Shown piece by piece: positions 4,764 to 30,323 of a stretch of DNA of 64,000 nucleotides; position 1 is the stretch's first letter, and every line of letters begins with the position of its first letter. The stretch covers positions 7,118,001 through 7,182,000 of the forward strand of contig NZ_CP017641.1 of the NCBI RefSeq assembly GCF_001983935.1. Reading direction: 5' to 3'. The translations under genes were made by a program, and so were the position numbers. The stretch is from Fuerstiella marisgermanici. Lineage in GTDB: Bacteria; Planctomycetota; Planctomycetia; Planctomycetales; Planctomycetaceae. The notes below the pieces were generated by a model, which searched no databases, was not told where the DNA came from, and saw only the letters and a list, made by a program, of their open reading frames with translations.

Positions 4764-6755
4764 CTACTCGACGATATCCCAAAATTCGTCGCCCGGTTTT
4801 TTCTCTTCACGACGCGGACGTTTCTTACTGGCTGTCTTTTGCGGTGATTTCTTCCGTGCGGTTGTGCTGCCGCCGTGTGTGGCTGGACGGCGTTTTCGCT
4901 TTTTGCGTTTGGCAGGCCGAGCGACCGCACCGCACGCTGAACAGCGTCCGGCAGAATTCATCGAGGAACCACACTTGTTGCAGAGTCGGATCGGCTGGTC
5001 GAAATCGTCTTCCGATGTGCGGCTGCTTAAGTCGGCCAGTTCCATCAGCTTTTCGCTGACAACAGCCCACTCTTCCGACAGCGAACGTTCGTCCGGATTC
5101 TTTGATGGTGCCGGTTGCATCCGCTTTGGTTGCGCTTTCGGTTGAGCCCGCGGCGTTTTCATTTTCGCTGGTGCCAGCTTCGGTGGAGCGGGTTCGGGGG
5201 GAAGAGCGATCTTGGCGTCGTCGACTTCCTGCTGCATCTGAGCACTCATGTTTTCGCGCCGGATGAATTCTACTTCTGCTGATTTACCGCTCTTCAATTC
5301 GCGTGCGGATACGTGAACGCGAGCCTGGCTGTCGTAGCTGATGGTGACTTCCACTTCGCTGCCTTCCGGTAGGTCTGGCGGTAAGTCGGAAATCAGGCAA
5401 TCGCCCAGGACCGTATGAGGCTTTCCGGGGCCGGCTCCGCTTTCCGCGATTCGCACATGCACTTTGGTTTGGCGATCAACCACCGTGCCGAACACGCGCG
5501 TACGTGAAGCAGGCAGAGTGGTGTTGGGCGGTATCAGATAGTGAGGCACTCGCTTGCCGGAATCGGTGTCGCGGATCAATATTCCAAGACCACGCGCGTT
5601 GACACTGTGCTGCTTCAGTTTTGCCAGACGCGTTGATGCTTCAGTGTTAAAAACCGTTCGCGTGTATTGCTGGTTGGAAAGCAGCATGCCGGCGTAGTAC
5701 GCGGCACCGTGAGCAATCGACTGATCCGGCGACAGTGACGAATTTAGAGTTCGGCCGCTTAGTTTTTTGAGGCTCTCACGGACCATTGGCATTCTTGACG
5801 AACCGCCGGTCAGGAGAACAACATCGATATGAGCCCATCCGAAGCCATTGTCGGCCAGGATGCGACGGGTGATGGCTTCGCTGCGCGTTACCAACCGTCG
5901 ACTGAACTGTACGAATTCATCCTGTTCAATCTGATAGGTGCGTCGCTGGCCGCCATCCTGCACCGTCACGGCGGCTCGGGGCCTCACGGAAAGGCTGCGT
6001 TTGGCTTGTTCAGCTTCCAGTGCCAGAAACTGGTGGCTGGTCGGGTCCTTGCGAGGATCTTCTTTGAAGTCGTCGAGGAATCGTTCGGCAGCGATGTCGA
6101 CGAGAACTTGAGTCCAGTCGAGGCCGCCGAGTTCCAGGTCGCCGTCGGATGCCACAACTCGCACTTCGTCGCTGGAGTACCTCACGATGGCCAGGTCCAG
6201 TGTGCCGCCGCCCAAATCGTAAACGAGTACCTCTTGATCGATTGCCAGTTCTGTAAACGCAAGACCTTCATTGCCCAGAACATGGCACAACGCTGCAGCG
6301 ACTGGTTCGTTGATGATCTCCACTTTTTCCAGACCCGCCGCATGTCCTGCTCGAATCGTGGCGTGTCGTTGAGCATCGCTAAACTGAGCGGGGACCGTGA
6401 CCACGGCTTCGTTAATTTCGCCGATCTGTTCCTGGGCGGCCGAGATCAGCTTTCGCAGAATTAATCCGGAAATGTGTTCGGGCGAATAATCCTGGCCCCC
6501 GATCGTCCAGAATTTCCCGGGGTTGCCCATGTGTCGCTTAGCGTTCTGGACGACTCGGTCCGGCTGAGCGATCGCGTTCCTCAGGGCTTCGGTGCCGACC
6601 ACCGCTTCGTCGCCGTCGAAGAAAACGGCGGACGGAGTAGACAGTTCGCCTTCCTGATTCGGTATAGTGACCGGATGCCCGTGTTCGTTCAGCCACGCAA
6701 TGCAGGAATAAGTTGTTCCAAGGTCGATGCCGACCGCCTGCGTTTGCTTCATCAC
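4764..6755 (-). CDS. Hsp70/DnaK-family ATPase with C-terminal zinc ribbon and basic tail
   Basis: Hsp70 chaperone-like protein of 663 residues. The ATPase domain is complete: phosphate-1 motif GIDLGTTYSCIA near the start, VTVPAQFSDAQR, the phosphate-2 motif VYDLGGGTLDLA and the adenosine motif LLTGGSSRMPMV. A shortened substrate-binding domain follows to about residue 500. The last 150 residues differ from DnaK: a Pro/Lys-rich linker, a zinc ribbon (CNKCGSSM ... CSACGA), then a Lys/Arg-rich stretch ending in an acidic DEFWDIVE peptide. The classical helical lid seems to be missing. This is therefore a specialised Hsp70 paralogue rather than the housekeeping DnaK. No grpE or dnaJ is adjacent. 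The gene is divergent from the STN-like gene, with 135 bp between the starts. MM at the start leaves two adjacent possible initiators. Confidence 0.92.
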   Translation of the reverse strand: MMKQTQAVGIDLGTTYSCIAWLNEHGHPVTIPNQEGELSTPSAVFFDGDEAVVGTEALRNAIAQPDRVVQNAKRHMGNPGKFWTIGGQDYSPEHISGLILRKLISAAQEQIGEINEAVVTVPAQFSDAQRHATIRAGHAAGLEKVEIINEPVAAALCHVLGNEGLAFTELAIDQEVLVYDLGGGTLDLAIVRYSSDEVRVVASDGDLELGGLDWTQVLVDIAAERFLDDFKEDPRKDPTSHQFLALEAEQAKRSLSVRPRAAVTVQDGGQRRTYQIEQDEFVQFSRRLVTRSEAITRRILADNGFGWAHIDVVLLTGGSSRMPMVRESLKKLSGRTLNSSLSPDQSIAHGAAYYAGMLLSNQQYTRTVFNTEASTRLAKLKQHSVNARGLGILIRDTDSGKRVPHYLIPPNTTLPASRTRVFGTVVDRQTKVHVRIAESGAGPGKPHTVLGDCLISDLPPDLPEGSEVEVTISYDSQARVHVSARELKSGKSAEVEFIRRENMSAQMQQEVDDAKIALPPEPAPPKLAPAKMKTPRAQPKAQPKRMQPAPSKNPDERSLSEEWAVVSEKLMELADLSSRTSEDDFDQPIRLCNKCGSSMNSAGRCSACGAVARPAKRKKRKRRPATHGGSTTARKKSPQKTASKKRPRREEKKPGDEFWDIVE

Positions 6756-26065: not shown

Positions 26066-26350
26066 ATGTCGAAGAAACGTGAACGTCACACTCCGGAGCA
26101 GATTGTTCGGAAGCTTCGTGATGCGGATGCGATGCTGACGAGCGGCAAGTCGCTCGGTGAGGTTGTTCAATCGCTGGCTGTCAGTGAAGCGACGTATCAT
26201 CGCTGGCGTCAGCAGTACGGCGGGATGAAGGCCGAGGAAGCAAAGCGTCTGAAGGAACTGGAAGTTGAGAACGCTCGGCTTAAGAAGCTGCTTGCGGAAG
26301 CGGAACTCGACAAGGCAATGCTGAAGGAGATCGCGGAGGGAAACTTCTGA
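26066..26350 (+). CDS. IS3-family transposase OrfA
   Basis: 94-residue DNA-binding subunit with an N-terminal helix-turn-helix (YTPEQI-like HTPEQIVRKLRDADAML ... SEATYHRWRQQYGG). A leucine-zipper helix follows (LKELEVENARLKKLLAEAEL). It has an AGGAG-like site (CAGGAGACTCAGG) before the ATG. Its last codons contain the slippery sequence GGGAAAC, so ribosomes can shift to make the OrfAB transposase. OrfA itself is intact, but the fused product is now truncated because orfB is broken. Confidence 0.93.
   Translation: MSKKRERHTPEQIVRKLRDADAMLTSGKSLGEVVQSLAVSEATYHRWRQQYGGMKAEEAKRLKELEVENARLKKLLAEAELDKAMLKEIAEGNF
26338..26344 (+). promoter_or_regulatory. Programmed -1 frameshift site GGGAAAC
   Basis: In the orfA frame the codons are GGA AAC (26339-26344) preceded by G, the canonical X XXY YYZ heptamer. 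Two codons later orfA ends at TGA (26348-26350). After a -1 slip the frame reads AAA CTT CTG ACG and runs straight into orfB. Confidence 0.75.
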
Positions 26351-27111
26351 CGGTCTCCCGGAAACGCGAGGCCGTCAAACATGTGCAGGAGAAGTTCGAC
26401 GTTTCGGAACGTCACGCGTGCCGAACGGTTGGTCAGCATCGTTCGGTTCATCGTCGTGAACCCGTTGTTCGCGATGATGAGGCGGCGTTGGTGAAGCGAA
26501 TGCTGGAGCTGGTTCGTGAGCATCCGCGATTTGGTTATCGGCGTATCTGTCGTCTTCTTCGTCGCGAAGAATTCGTGGTGAACAGGAAGCGAATGTATCG
26601 CCTTTGGCGTCGTGAAGGCCTGAAGGTCTGTCGACGAACGAAGAAGCGGCGTGGCACTGGCGGCAGTAAAAACGCTTGTCATGTTCACCGATCGCGGGGA
26701 AAAAACGACGTATGGGCGTGGGATTTTGTGTTTGACTACACAACGAATGGAACTCAGTTGAAGTGGCTGACCGTTGTTGACGAATTCACTCGGGAGTGCG
26801 TTGCGTTGAAAGTTTCTCGCAGTATCAAAGCCGACGACGTAATCGACACGTTGTGTGAATTGATCGCTGCTCGCGGTGTGCCGAACCACATTCGCAGCGA
26901 CAACGGCCCAGAGTTTATCGCGAAGGCGATTGGCAAGTGGCTGAAACAAACAGGCGTCTCGGCGCTGTACGTCGAGCCGGGATCGCCGTGGCAGAACGGG
27001 TATTCCGAGAGTTTCAATTCGAAGCTTCGCGATGAATTTCTGAACGTGGAAGAGTTTGAAAGTGTTCGCGATGCCGTACAGATGACGAAGGAATTTCAAC
27101 GTCAGTACAAC
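26345..27111 (+). pseudogene. IS3-family OrfB (rve integrase core), 5' fragment
   Basis: Catalytic subunit of the IS3 transposase, entered by -1 frameshift or from a GTG at 26383. It has the HTH_21 region (REHPRFGYRRICRLLRRE) and the rve DDE core with Asp in VWAWDFVFDYT, the second Asp in HIRSDNGPEF and Glu in WQNGYSESFNSKLRDEFL. The frame is intact to FQRQYN at 27111, then runs into unrelated sequence. The missing end, beginning EVRPHSALDYQTP, lies 2.6 kb away at 29735-29857. All three acidic residues are on this fragment, but the C-terminal tail is lost. Confidence 0.9.
27105..27111 (+). repeat. Left junction repeat GTACAAC of the serine-recombinase element
   Basis: GTACAAC at the point where orfB stops matching. 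The same 7 bp recur at 29728-29734, where orfB resumes. It is probably the att core or overlap of the integration. Confidence 0.65.
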
Positions 27112-27144
27112 TGTGTTTCATTATGCACCTTTGTTCTATTTGAG

Positions 27145-29220
27145 TTAAAACTCAAGGGATTGCTGTTTGGGATCTGGTACCGCGGGGTTGCGGTTTCGAG
27201 TTTTTGCCTTCCGGACAACGGCCTTTGCCGCTGGCGTCTCCAGTTCGCTGCGATTGATGATCCACGGTCCGTCCGGAAGCGGGTGTTGACCTTTGATATC
27301 GGCTCGTTCAATCGCCAGTCTGAGTGTCCGCGTGCTGATGCCAAGATGTTTTGCGCTGTCGGTTAGGTTCATCCAGCCTTGATCAGATTGAGCCTGTGCA
27401 GTCCAGCGGGCAATCTTGTGGTAGTTCCGCATCGATGTGACCCGCTCTCGAGTCCACCGGTTTCCTCGTCCCGTTGGTAACCCGTTGCGGTTGAGCAGTC
27501 CGGCGATGAGATCGTCGGAACAGATTCGTGCGAGTGACCGGACAGCATCGACGGCCTCTGCTGACGTGGCTGTCGATTTTCCGCGACGACGGCGGGGAAG
27601 TCGCAGTTCGGTATGCACACCACCAACCCAGTGGATTGTAAGAATGACTTCGCTCACGTCGTTGTCGACATCCGCAACGATATCGCGGATCAGAGTCCGA
27701 ACGATGCGTTTCTTGATTCGAATGTCAGCATCAGGATTGTTCCAGACTGCGTCAAGGTCAGCCACGACTGCCATCAGACCCTGCAAATCAGGATCGTCGA
27801 TTGAAGATCTATCATTTCGTTGCTGATCCATGCGCTCTTCGATGTCACTGACGTGTTGCATCGACGCATTCCATCGTCGTTCCAGTTCCTCGGTGACAAG
27901 TCGATTTTCCGGGTCAGCTGCATCGAATTGACGTTGCGCACGCGATGCTTCGTAACGAGCAGACTTGAGTTCACCTTCCAGTGCCTTGAGAACTTCGTTG
28001 TCACGTTCGGTTGTTTGCTGGTGAGCGAGCATGGCGGCCTCTTGAGCGGCAGGAGCAACAACACGGAATATCTGTTCTGCTACGGCGATGTCAACGGAAG
28101 TAGCACCGAATGCGATGCACTTGGCTTCGCCGTTATCCAGATACCCTCGATGACAGCAGTATCGCGGCACTTTCGCTCCGACTCCGCTGTACGCGACGGC
28201 CAGCCGGCGTCCACATTGTTGACAGCCCAGCATTCCCGACAACAGTGCCGAACCTTTTCGAGCAGCGCCTCGCCCGGAACGCAGATTGTTTGACGAAATC
28301 AAATCCTGCAATCGTTCGAACTCCTCCCACGATACATAGCCTTCGTGATGTTCGGGAATCAATGCGATCCATTCTTCGCGACTGCGCCGCCGTGTTTTTG
28401 AATCGATAAATCCACCTTCATACGATGGCTGATGTTCGGTTCGGCCATACGCATACGCCCCACCGTACACCGGATGAGTCAGGATCTGGTACACCATCCC
28501 GTATGTCGGACGCTTCCACTTCAGGACTCCGGCTTTGTCTCGCGCCGGCATCTGGAGATCTTCTTCCAGAAGCCACATCAGAGCTTGCCTCGCACTCCCC
28601 AGTTCGAAGCACTTGCGAAACACCAGATTGATCATCTGCTGCACGCGAGTATTCGGGTCTTTCTCAATGCGCTGATCTTTGCCTCGAGTCGTTCCCGTTT
28701 TCAGATATCCGACCGGTGCCGAAATGATCAGTTCTCCTCGGCGCGCCTTTTCACGCCGAGCTTCTACGGATCGCTGACGAAGGAGGTCCAGCTCGTATTC
28801 GTTCAAACTTCCTTTCAGTCCCAGCAACAGTCGGTCATTGCTCCGGCGAGGAGCGTAGACCGTTTCCTGATCGATGAGTAACGTGTCGACGACTCGACAA
28901 ACTTCAACCAGTTGCTGCCATTCACGACTGTTGCGAGCAAACCGCGACACCTCTCGTGCAGCAACGGCCCCGATCTTCCCGAGGCACACATCGGCGACCA
29001 TGCGTTCAAATCCCGATCGAACAACGCTGCCGGACGCGCTGCGCCCCAGATCTTCATCGATGACTTCAATGTCTTTCCATCCCAGTGAACGCATCCGTTG
29101 CTGCATGGCATACTGCAGCCTGCGGCTTTCTTCGTTGTGAAGCACCTGAAACGGCGACGACTGACGAATGTAAAGAACGGCTTTCCGCTGAAGATGGATG
29201 GCTTCAATCTTTTCACTCAT
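27145..29220 (-). CDS. Large serine recombinase
   Basis: 691 residues from ATG 29220, chosen because AAAGGAG lies 8 bp upstream; the frame is open further but has no comparable site. Catalytic domain: YIRQSS places the nucleophile at Ser21, followed by the Arg-rich AAREVSRFARNSREWQQLVE and the E-helix LNEYELDLLRQRS. The Recombinase domain (PVGYLKTG ... ILTHPVYGGAYAYGR) follows, then a zinc ribbon (CQQCGRR ... YCCHRG ... CIAFG) and a coiled coil rich in Glu/Arg. The C-terminus adds an excisionase-like helix-turn-helix (MNLTDSAKHLGISTRTLRLAIERADI), an uncommon extra. It overlaps the preceding small gene by 8 bp (ATGAGTGA), indicating translational coupling. It should integrate and excise this element. 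Confidence 0.93.
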   Translation of the reverse strand: MSEKIEAIHLQRKAVLYIRQSSPFQVLHNEESRRLQYAMQQRMRSLGWKDIEVIDEDLGRSASGSVVRSGFERMVADVCLGKIGAVAAREVSRFARNSREWQQLVEVCRVVDTLLIDQETVYAPRRSNDRLLLGLKGSLNEYELDLLRQRSVEARREKARRGELIISAPVGYLKTGTTRGKDQRIEKDPNTRVQQMINLVFRKCFELGSARQALMWLLEEDLQMPARDKAGVLKWKRPTYGMVYQILTHPVYGGAYAYGRTEHQPSYEGGFIDSKTRRRSREEWIALIPEHHEGYVSWEEFERLQDLISSNNLRSGRGAARKGSALLSGMLGCQQCGRRLAVAYSGVGAKVPRYCCHRGYLDNGEAKCIAFGATSVDIAVAEQIFRVVAPAAQEAAMLAHQQTTERDNEVLKALEGELKSARYEASRAQRQFDAADPENRLVTEELERRWNASMQHVSDIEERMDQQRNDRSSIDDPDLQGLMAVVADLDAVWNNPDADIRIKKRIVRTLIRDIVADVDNDVSEVILTIHWVGGVHTELRLPRRRRGKSTATSAEAVDAVRSLARICSDDLIAGLLNRNGLPTGRGNRWTRERVTSMRNYHKIARWTAQAQSDQGWMNLTDSAKHLGISTRTLRLAIERADIKGQHPLPDGPWIINRSELETPAAKAVVRKAKTRNRNPAVPDPKQQSLEF

Positions 29221-29392
29221 CTTCGGACTCCTTTCCGCTGTTGAGATTTTCAGCATGATGACGAACGAGTTCCGCCAGATATCGGGTCGCTTCTTCCCGA
29301 GTCTCGCTGGGCAGATCACTCCATCGCGGCCGGGGCGGACTCACTTCAAACAGATCAAGCTGTGTTGTCGGTTTCGTTCTGGGTTGTGGCAT
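29213..29392 (-). CDS. Small protein of the serine-recombinase element
   Basis: 59 residues from ATG 29392 (MPQPRTKPTTQLDLFEVSPP); an upstream in-frame start at 29428 would overlap more of the first gene. It begins with a basic/Pro segment containing QLDLFE, reminiscent of clamp-binding peptides, followed by a helix (LPSETREEATRYLAELVRHHAE) and an acidic tail. The stop overlaps the recombinase start. I cannot name the family. Its fixed place between the other two genes suggests an accessory role in recombination. Confidence 0.75.
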   Translation of the reverse strand: MPQPRTKPTTQLDLFEVSPPRPRWSDLPSETREEATRYLAELVRHHAENLNSGKESEDE

Positions 29393-29771
29393 CAGCATCT
29401 CCCTGAGAAGATTGGAAATGCTGAACATCTATCAGAAACTCATCGCCCGCTGTGGCGTCCCGCAGCAGTGCTGAAAGATTCAATAGTGCTGATATTGAAA
29501 CGCAGGGTTCGTCGCGTAGCTGCATGACGCAGCATACAGACTGATTCAACATCCACTGCGGAACTTCACGAAACTTTCCGTCCGTCACGTCGGCAGGACG
29601 ACACAAATAGACAGCTCCGCGATCACGACGTACGATCGCTCGATCAATCGTGACGGGCTGATCAAACCAAGGGTGCCATCGATACCGAACTACTGCCTCG
29701 GTAACATGGGTATCGGTACGTGAGGTTGTACAACGAAGTTCGTCCGCACAGCGCGTTGGACTACCAGACAC
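29355..29771 (-). CDS. DUF5372-like protein of the serine-recombinase element
   Basis: The frame gives RYRWHPWFDQPVTIDRAIVRRDRGAVYLCRP, close to the HPFHPLxGxxF pattern I associate with DUF5372 proteins that accompany serine recombinases. The only credible start, GTG 29771, lies outside the element, in antisense IS3 orfB sequence, so about the first 13 codons come from the insertion site. Inside the element no ATG, GTG or TTG precedes the conserved part. Its end overlaps the following small gene. Function is unknown. The DUF name is from memory and needs a profile search. Confidence 0.65.
   Translation of the reverse strand: MSGSPTRCADELRCTTSRTDTHVTEAVVRYRWHPWFDQPVTIDRAIVRRDRGAVYLCRPADVTDGKFREVPQWMLNQSVCCVMQLRDEPCVSISALLNLSALLRDATAGDEFLIDVQHFQSSQGDADATTQNETDNTA
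29728..29734 (+). repeat. Right junction repeat GTACAAC of the serine-recombinase element
   Basis: Second copy of GTACAAC, immediately followed by the displaced end of IS3 orfB. It is in direct orientation to 27105-27111. Confidence 0.65.
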
Positions 29772-29857
29772 CGAATGAGTTCGCGGCGATGCAGCCTTCG
29801 GTTCGAGCTCGACAGACGGGAGCCGCCCCGACCACCTTCGCCATCACCTCGACCTGA
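29729..29857 (+). pseudogene. IS3-family OrfB, displaced 3' fragment
   Basis: Encodes LYNEVRPHSALDYQTPNEF and a short tail to TGA at 29857. This is the typical end of IS3 OrfB proteins and completes the fragment that stops at 27111, in the same strand and compatible frame. Confidence 0.9.
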
Positions 29858-29982
29858 GCTCCGCGTTGAAGGCCGAGGCGACAGCGAAGGCGGACGGGGC
29901 TCAGCACAACTTGTTTGGAAGATTATTCAATACCAATGTCAGCCCACAACTCTCATAACAACCGGACCTAATCTCGGGGGCA

Positions 29983-30323
29983 GCCCAACCCGCATTGCAA
30001 TTGGCATACAGGCCGCTGCGGCGAATCATCCGCTGCCCCTTCGGCGGCACGTGCTCAAACCAGCGCTTCAGAAATTCGTGCGGCGTGACTCGCATCAGCT
30101 TCTGCTGACCGTCGCGATGGTCGCGGTACCAGAACGCGATCTCATCGGAATCGACTCGTTCAATCCGCCTGCCCGAAATCGGACTGCCACAAACATACTT
30201 CGCAAGGTATCCCGCCACCGAACAACCATGACGGTACGTTTCCTGAATCCGCGTGTTCCAGTCCGAGCGAGAAAGGCGGTTGAACAATGAGATGCACTTC
30301 GCAACGCGGCCACACAGGTCTTT
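29983..30323 (-). pseudogene. IS91-like Y2 transposase, core fragment
   Basis: The minus strand encodes a fragment of an IS91-family transposase: VAKCISLFNRLSRSDWNT, then the block with the second catalytic region, SVAGYLAKYVCGSPISGRRI, then WYRDHRDGQQKLMRVTPHEF and HVPPKGQRMIRRSGLYANC. It is cut on the C-terminal side by the IS3 end (29982) and on the N-terminal side near 30323, next to the 14-bp flanking repeat, where the frame meets a stop. The Y2 tyrosines and zinc-binding N-terminus are absent. It is a dead remnant; its tail is at 25790-25999. Confidence 0.8.

Follow-up and report, generated by a model that had tools for sequence, protein, structure and literature searches.

Several transposons are moved by large serine recombinases (LSRs), among them Tn4451 and Tn4453 with TnpX and Tn5397 with TndX. 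The crossover core of TnpX and TndX is GA. Excision of Tn4451 produces a circle, and the promoter of tnpX is created at the circle junction (Lyras and Rood 2000, as cited in PMC13023037). In the mycobacteriophage BPs, which has integration-dependent immunity, the attachment site attP lies inside the repressor gene and integration alters the product (PMC4557955). The circle promoter of Tn4451 and the attP within a gene of BPs are precedents for parts of the mechanism that we propose for an element of Fuerstiella marisgermanici. This element lies in a stretch of 64,000 nucleotides (the window; positions 7,118,001-7,182,000 of the single 8.92-Mb contig NZ_CP017641.1), and coordinates are window positions unless the chromosome is named. 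By its gene content, the element is an autonomous, cargo-free transposon of ~2.62 kb with the gene order orf1, orf2 and LSR. It interrupts the transposase gene of an insertion sequence (IS). In our best reading, which we consider very likely, it is an IS-parasitic LSR transposon with a first gene that is completed in the circle.

The element resembles the TnpX and TndX transposons in its LSR-based transposition and its insertion without a long target duplication. It differs from them in its TA core, in lacking cargo and mobilisation genes, in targeting a codon motif of transposase genes, and in having an att site that splits the coding sequence of the first gene. DUF4368, which passages of PMC10083194 give as present in 63% of the members of the TndX-like clade, was not matched by the window recombinase at E 0.001. 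The best named match of this recombinase was XisF of the fdxN element in heterocystous cyanobacteria (NF041201, E 1.6e-25, residues 96-453 of the 724-aa open reading frame (ORF)), which scored 90 bits where the equivalog cut-off is 375. XisF acts with two further proteins, XisH and XisI, neither of which was matched by orf1 or orf2 in Pfam and NCBIfam, and its role is developmental excision, whereas the element described here is a transposon. The attP of BPs likewise lies within a protein gene; there, however, integration trims the C-terminus, whereas here it removes the start codon and the ribosome-binding site (RBS) in a transposon operon. The IS607 family shares the combination of an IS-sized element and a serine recombinase, but its DNA-binding domain is N-terminal to the catalytic domain, whereas the recombinase in the window has 691 aa with the Resolvase domain at the N-terminus. 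Group II introns can also home into insertion sequences, with IS genes as landing sites, but their enzyme and chemistry are unrelated to those of an LSR element. In the literature outside subscription journals and supplements, we found no paper on LSRs aimed at IS genes, nothing that mentioned DUF5372, and nothing relevant on serine recombinases with IS66. Passages of a large survey of LSR targets highlight other genes (PMC10083194). Because the search excluded subscription journals and supplements, the element family can be called undescribed only provisionally.

The first-pass annotation of the window had used an interrupted orfB to locate both ends of the element, and these ends could be confirmed and sharpened to the base. 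The orfB of an IS3-family IS is cut after position 27107 and resumes at 29731 (Table 1). Five uninterrupted copies of this IS on the same chromosome, 100% identical to the IS flanks in the window, each contain the sequence GTACAAC once. Hence, the element was inserted and its ends are exact, such that the element copy spans 27106-29730 within a host IS at 26066-29857. A whole-genome search found seven copies of the element on the chromosome (97.6-100% identical), and their alignment showed that they end at identical bases in different contexts. These copies differed chiefly by substitutions and by the number of a 9-bp unit in the recombinase gene, with 0, 1 or 2 extra units (+0, +9 or +18 bp) and the frame always kept.

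Table 1. Features of the element and its host IS, in window positions.
Feature	Position	Strand	Basis
Host IS3-family IS, orfA	26066..26350	+	Pfam HTH_Tnp_1 6.1e-15
Host IS3 orfB, 5' part (rve transposase), stops after TA of the Tyr codon	26383..27107	+	Pfam rve 5.6e-20; NCBIfam transpos_IS3 6.4e-64; intact copies in the same genome
attL crossover TA	27106..27107	.	Sole dinucleotide common to 7/7 copies and 24/24 distinct attB sites
GTACAAC direct repeat, left copy	27105..27111	+	Read in the sequence
orf1 prefix of 16 nt (ATGAAACACAGTTGTA), located at the far element end; start codon 27121-27119	27106..27121	-	Direct reading; prefix length invariant in clade A loci scored
AAAGG, RBS-like, before the orf1 ATG	27128..27132	-	Sequence; G-rich counterparts GGTG, GGGG and GATGGG in relatives
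Large serine recombinase, 691 aa: Resolvase, Recombinase, zinc ribbon, C-terminal extension	27145..29220	-	Pfam
9-bp unit (CGTGGCTGT) inside the recombinase gene, approximate site	27556..27573	-	Alignment of copies, gap put at 27564
orf2, 59 aa; overlaps the end of orf1 and the start of the recombinase	29213..29392	-	Kept in relatives
orf1 body without start codon (predicted small beta-barrel; Y.WHPW....P.WM motif)	29355..29728	-	Direct reading; purifying selection in relatives; model
GTACAAC, right copy	29728..29734	+	Read in the sequence
attR crossover TA	29729..29730	.	Comparison of copies and attB
Host IS3 orfB, 3' part (..NEVRPHSALDYQTPNEF..)	29731..29857	+	Contiguous with 26383-27107 in intact copies

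The recombinase contains the domain set of LSRs (PF00239, 3.6e-18; PF07508, 1.5e-18; PF13408, 4.7e-05, the latter 1 bit under the cut-off), and the serine motif YIRQSS can be read in it. Its C-terminal extension, which has no family match, looks like a helix-turn-helix.

The GTACAAC repeat at both ends had been proposed as the crossover core. The repeat is present, but the core consists of TA only, in agreement with the 2-bp core of LSRs. The TA occurs in all copies, and its neighbours are excluded because TA is preceded by G, C or T depending on the target, while the element ends always supply G-TA-C (junctions of the seven copies), and because TA is followed by TAAC in copy L003 and by CGTT in copy L005. 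Read from these junctions, GTACAAC is the TA plus att homology shared by the target (codons TAC AAC) and the element ends, and not a duplication. A target-site duplication was considered and rejected, as flanks and element have only TA in common; insertion adds no target duplication beyond the 2-bp core. The reconstructed circle junction, attP, is GTTG-TA-CAAC, a palindrome between conserved arms. Predicted circle junctions are ATGAAACACAGTTG-TA-CAACCTC for the window type and ATGAAACAGGATTG-TA-CAACACG for the Sinorhizobium type. In LI integrase, zinc-domain motifs are shifted by 5 bp in attP versus attB (PMC3783163); matching of these motifs with a 5-bp shift was ambiguous for our element and no claim is made from it.

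Homologues were gathered from genomes and from plasmids (485 plasmid records, 997 places) and read with their flanks; Sinorhizobium medicae ml49 is among the hosts with several copies. Clade A comprises elements with a recombinase above ~50% identity, from Planctomycetes, Acidobacteria, and alpha- and betaproteobacteria. We rebuilt the empty sites of 25 clade A elements in silico by joining both flanks, which yielded 24 distinct sites, each reading as transposase through Y(N/H/V/K)..R. At 24/24 sites, the core TA supplies bases 1 and 2 of the codon for Tyr in YN..RPHS, a conserved motif encoded by IS3/IS481-type transposase genes, and the element lies antisense to the transposase, in one orientation. 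The span including both TA cores was 2,624-2,648 bp in all distinct copies except L050, which is internally deleted. Furthermore, orf1 and orf2 accompany the recombinase in every clade A copy where they are readable; orf2 of L039 looks frame-broken. The proposal of a minimal, cargo-free LSR transposon with conserved partners thus held: alignment of homologous units recovered the fixed dinucleotide TA and the same edges in all copies, and among the readable clade A copies there was neither a recombinase lacking both genes nor a differing edge. The first-pass annotation had not recognised the conserved transposase motif as the target.

The orientation of integration is set by an asymmetric central dinucleotide in Bxb1 and phiC31, a rule that is not strictly defining for serine integrases. 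Under this rule, the palindromic TA should permit both orientations, yet all 24 sites agree. LSR sites synapse in either alignment, and exchange is efficient only with parallel central dinucleotides (PMC3783163). The single orientation may reflect recognition of the arms by the enzyme or its partners, or a loss of wrong-way insertions through selection.

According to the first-pass annotation, the element holds three overlapping genes. The recombinase, orf2 and the body of orf1 are indeed present and overlap in the order orf1, orf2 and recombinase, all on the minus strand. However, orf1 is incomplete, because its ATG lies at the other end of the element, just past the recombinase stop. The attP falls within codons 5-6 of orf1. 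Integration therefore cuts orf1 off from its RBS and ATG, and the gene is made whole again when the ends join. From the ATG to the end of the core we counted exactly 16 nt in 26/26 clade A loci scored. With this layout, the full orf1 is encoded by the circle alone; it measures 119-198 aa across these 26 loci (window, MKHSCTTSRTDTHVTEAVVRYRWHPW..., 129 aa; Sinorhizobium, MKQDCTTRRQNTHGTEVRELLYPWHPW..., 182 aa). In integrated loci, the first in-frame ATG of orf1 occurs at codon 57-58 after the core (25/26 scored), past the conserved Y.WHPW domain. The exception is L079, with an in-element ATG at codon 14; in the other clade A loci the first in-frame GTG or TTG is found at codon 14-53. Orf1, and possibly the whole operon, would hence be complete only in the free circle.

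Selection on orf1 was analysed in ten alphaproteobacterial copies. Codons 7-60 in the circle frame showed a pN/pS of 0.38 and a median dN/dS of 0.20, whereas the other two frames gave a pN/pS of 1.25 and 1.32; codons 61 to the end were weakly constrained (0.87). As only the circle frame shows constraint, selection appears to act on a protein whose start spans the attachment site. Clade B elements in IstB, IS66 TnpC and IS5 fit the same 16-nt layout, with a complete orf1 of 161-169 aa and a transposase-like empty site; their core was placed through the empty-site reading, out of several frame-compatible options. These results bear on a rival explanation, in which the far-end ATG is unrelated to orf1, the ends are kept as binding arms of the recombinase, and orf1 is expressed from flanking or internal starts after integration. 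The arms of attP are conserved and some flanks supply in-frame starts for orf1, as this explanation would have it. We nevertheless consider it unlikely, since every scored clade A locus, and clade B as well, retains the prefix length and frame, the circle frame is the only one in which purifying selection is seen on the orf1 codons ahead of the first internal ATG, an RBS-like stretch stands ahead of the far-end ATG, and in L002, the 100% identical sister of the window copy, a stop precedes any flanking start.

The window orf1 had been called DUF5372-like. Neither orf1 nor orf2 of the window matched a Pfam or NCBIfam family, and orf1 did not match PF17342 (DUF5372) up to E 10. However, orf1 of the distant relative L014, in the same gene position, matched PF17342 with 69 bits (3.5e-19; cut-off 25), which makes the name reasonable by extension. 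Orf1 of L031 remained under this cut-off (18.9 bits, 0.0016), and a profile comparison of orf1 with a true DUF5372 protein was collinear at a low probability of 11%. AlphaFold2, run on six sequences, predicted a small beta-barrel at residues 7-61 (pLDDT mostly 84-91) and a helix at residues 77-90. The folds closest to the model were SH3/KOW/chromo-like barrels (Z 5 to 5.7, the highest at 2.4 Å over 52 residues), and Foldseek gave no significant match (best E 0.64). The barrel is a common arrangement, so the fold indicates no function.

Anatomy, core, target, orientation and split gene are documented by the sequences, and we propose the following mechanism. The element would excise as a circle, in which transcription from the tail would cross attP and produce the full orf1, orf2 and recombinase; the overlapping genes are probably translationally coupled. 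The recombinase, perhaps aided by orf1 and orf2, would integrate the circle into the next IS copy, and integration would strip orf1 of its start and thereby turn the operon down. For the two small proteins, the first-pass annotation had suggested a part in recombination, such as directionality or targeting. Since the circle, unlike the integrated copy, would provide the full orf1, this protein would more probably assist integration than excision. Insertion sequences would offer many dispensable landing sites, and a transposing host IS could carry its passenger along. If true, this would be a clear bacterial case of transposons that target the catalytic genes of other transposons, in several phyla and on hundreds of plasmids, with a simple off-switch: upon integration, the recombinase operon would lose the start codon of its first gene. 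It would also yield natural att pairs for a compact LSR family with motif-level specificity, and a test case for the rule that the central dinucleotide alone fixes the orientation of LSR integration.

Two copies, L005 (chromosome position 8630590) and L006 (1475713), consist of the same 1,277-bp IS3-type IS plus the element. The terminal repeats of this IS are TGAGGTGGTACAGGTTTCAGGGACA, and the block common to both loci stops exactly at the IS ends. GGA borders L005 at either side, as a 3-bp duplication would leave it, and the flanks of L006 match imperfectly. As the common block equals the whole IS, at least one joint move of the element and its host IS took place, unless the exact block was duplicated. 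In copy L003 (chromosome 2047032-2049892), the two IS halves resemble different IS relatives; the left half is like the window IS and the right half is different. These mismatched halves suggest recombination after or during insertion.

Relatives at 30-45% identity share this type of end but insert elsewhere, for the most part in conserved motifs of mobile-element genes. The targets (with example Pfam/NCBIfam E-values of the flank genes) were the Walker A motif of IS21 IstB (L040, L041, L071, by position also L085 and L013; 2.1e-32), IS66 TnpC between ERALRPI and GIGRKN (L066, L086, L093, L098, L102; 4.6e-27), IS66 TnpB (L068, L095, L099, L103; 3.7e-32), IS5 (L087 and L094, close relatives of L098, and also L069; 5.6e-48), IstA (L070, L100, L109), ISNCY (L043, L045; 5e-38), IS701 (L072; 3e-61), Y1/REP transposase (L018, L105) and a group II intron reverse transcriptase (L014; 4.5e-20). 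For most distant elements, identification concerned only the gene beside the tail; the tested clade B cases were read with the two flanks joined. The relative L012 adjoins or interrupts a further serine recombinase gene (Pfam Resolvase 1.2e-10, tail flank). Among the 43 recombinases placed in a tree, those of clade A, of the IstB group and of the TnpC group formed separate, well-supported branches. Hence, the target gene largely follows the recombinase lineage, with switches among close relatives such as L098 in TnpC and L087 in IS5. A tentative extension, possible but rather doubtful, is a superfamily parasitic on mobile elements, in which each lineage would read the DNA of an invariant motif of one IS family, the first gene would be complete in the circle only, and orf1 and orf2 would be orientation or targeting factors that give one-way insertion despite the palindromic TA.

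The target data also bear on a rival explanation, an ordinary LSR transposon of the multi-targeting kind, relaxed in its specificity and found in IS genes because these are abundant and disposable while copies elsewhere were lost by selection. A multi-targeting, TndX-like LSR clade is known (passages of PMC10083194), and the plasmids bearing relatives also bear many annotated transposases. However, relaxed targeting would scatter insertions inside IS genes, whereas clade A uses the same codon, motif and orientation across several phyla and clade B, too, is found at conserved motifs (IstB Walker A; TnpC at the ERALRPI-GIGRKN junction), which makes this explanation quite improbable. Although most described LSRs are integrases of phages or integrative and conjugative elements, it is very improbable that our element is the remnant of a prophage or larger integrative element with only the integrase module kept, given the uniform size of 2.62-2.65 kb across diverse hosts, the several near-identical copies per replicon, and the lack of a match at E 1e-30 among 50,697 phage records and of a confirmed relative in viral contigs.

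Several observations weigh against an IS-parasitic transposon whose first gene is completed in the circle. We found no intact attP or circle in the plasmids, where 157 places in 92 records partly matched the junction probe, none of them over as much as 80% of its length, and a pattern scan of viral contigs for a circle or tandem junction gave nothing. A promoter could not be placed confidently: one weak sigma-70-like match at the end with the orf1 ATG overlaps this ATG, and the promoter and terminator scan of the element was uninformative. Several relatives carry an in-element TTG at orf1 codon 14, and in some integrated copies, including that in the window, translation of a fused orf1 could begin at a GTG or ATG of the flanking antisense frame. 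With respect to the targets, only the head side of clade A locus L058 reads as transposase, while its tail meets other sequence; L106 sits in a gene for an FGE-sulfatase (formylglycine-generating enzyme; 1.7e-17), which is not a mobile-element target; and no target gene was assigned for L015, L017, L031, L042, L067 and L104.

Two further observations concern the surroundings of elements. The tail of L058 (~6070-6125, past the recombinase stop) joins TA, 18 nt and CCCAC, like the head of another element, and this locus possibly belongs to a degenerate tandem whose junction resembles attP. In the window, the IS3 copy is directly adjoined by an ORF at 29901-30287 on the minus strand (..GYLAKYVCGSPISGRR..), which by its look is a fragment of an IS91-type transposase.

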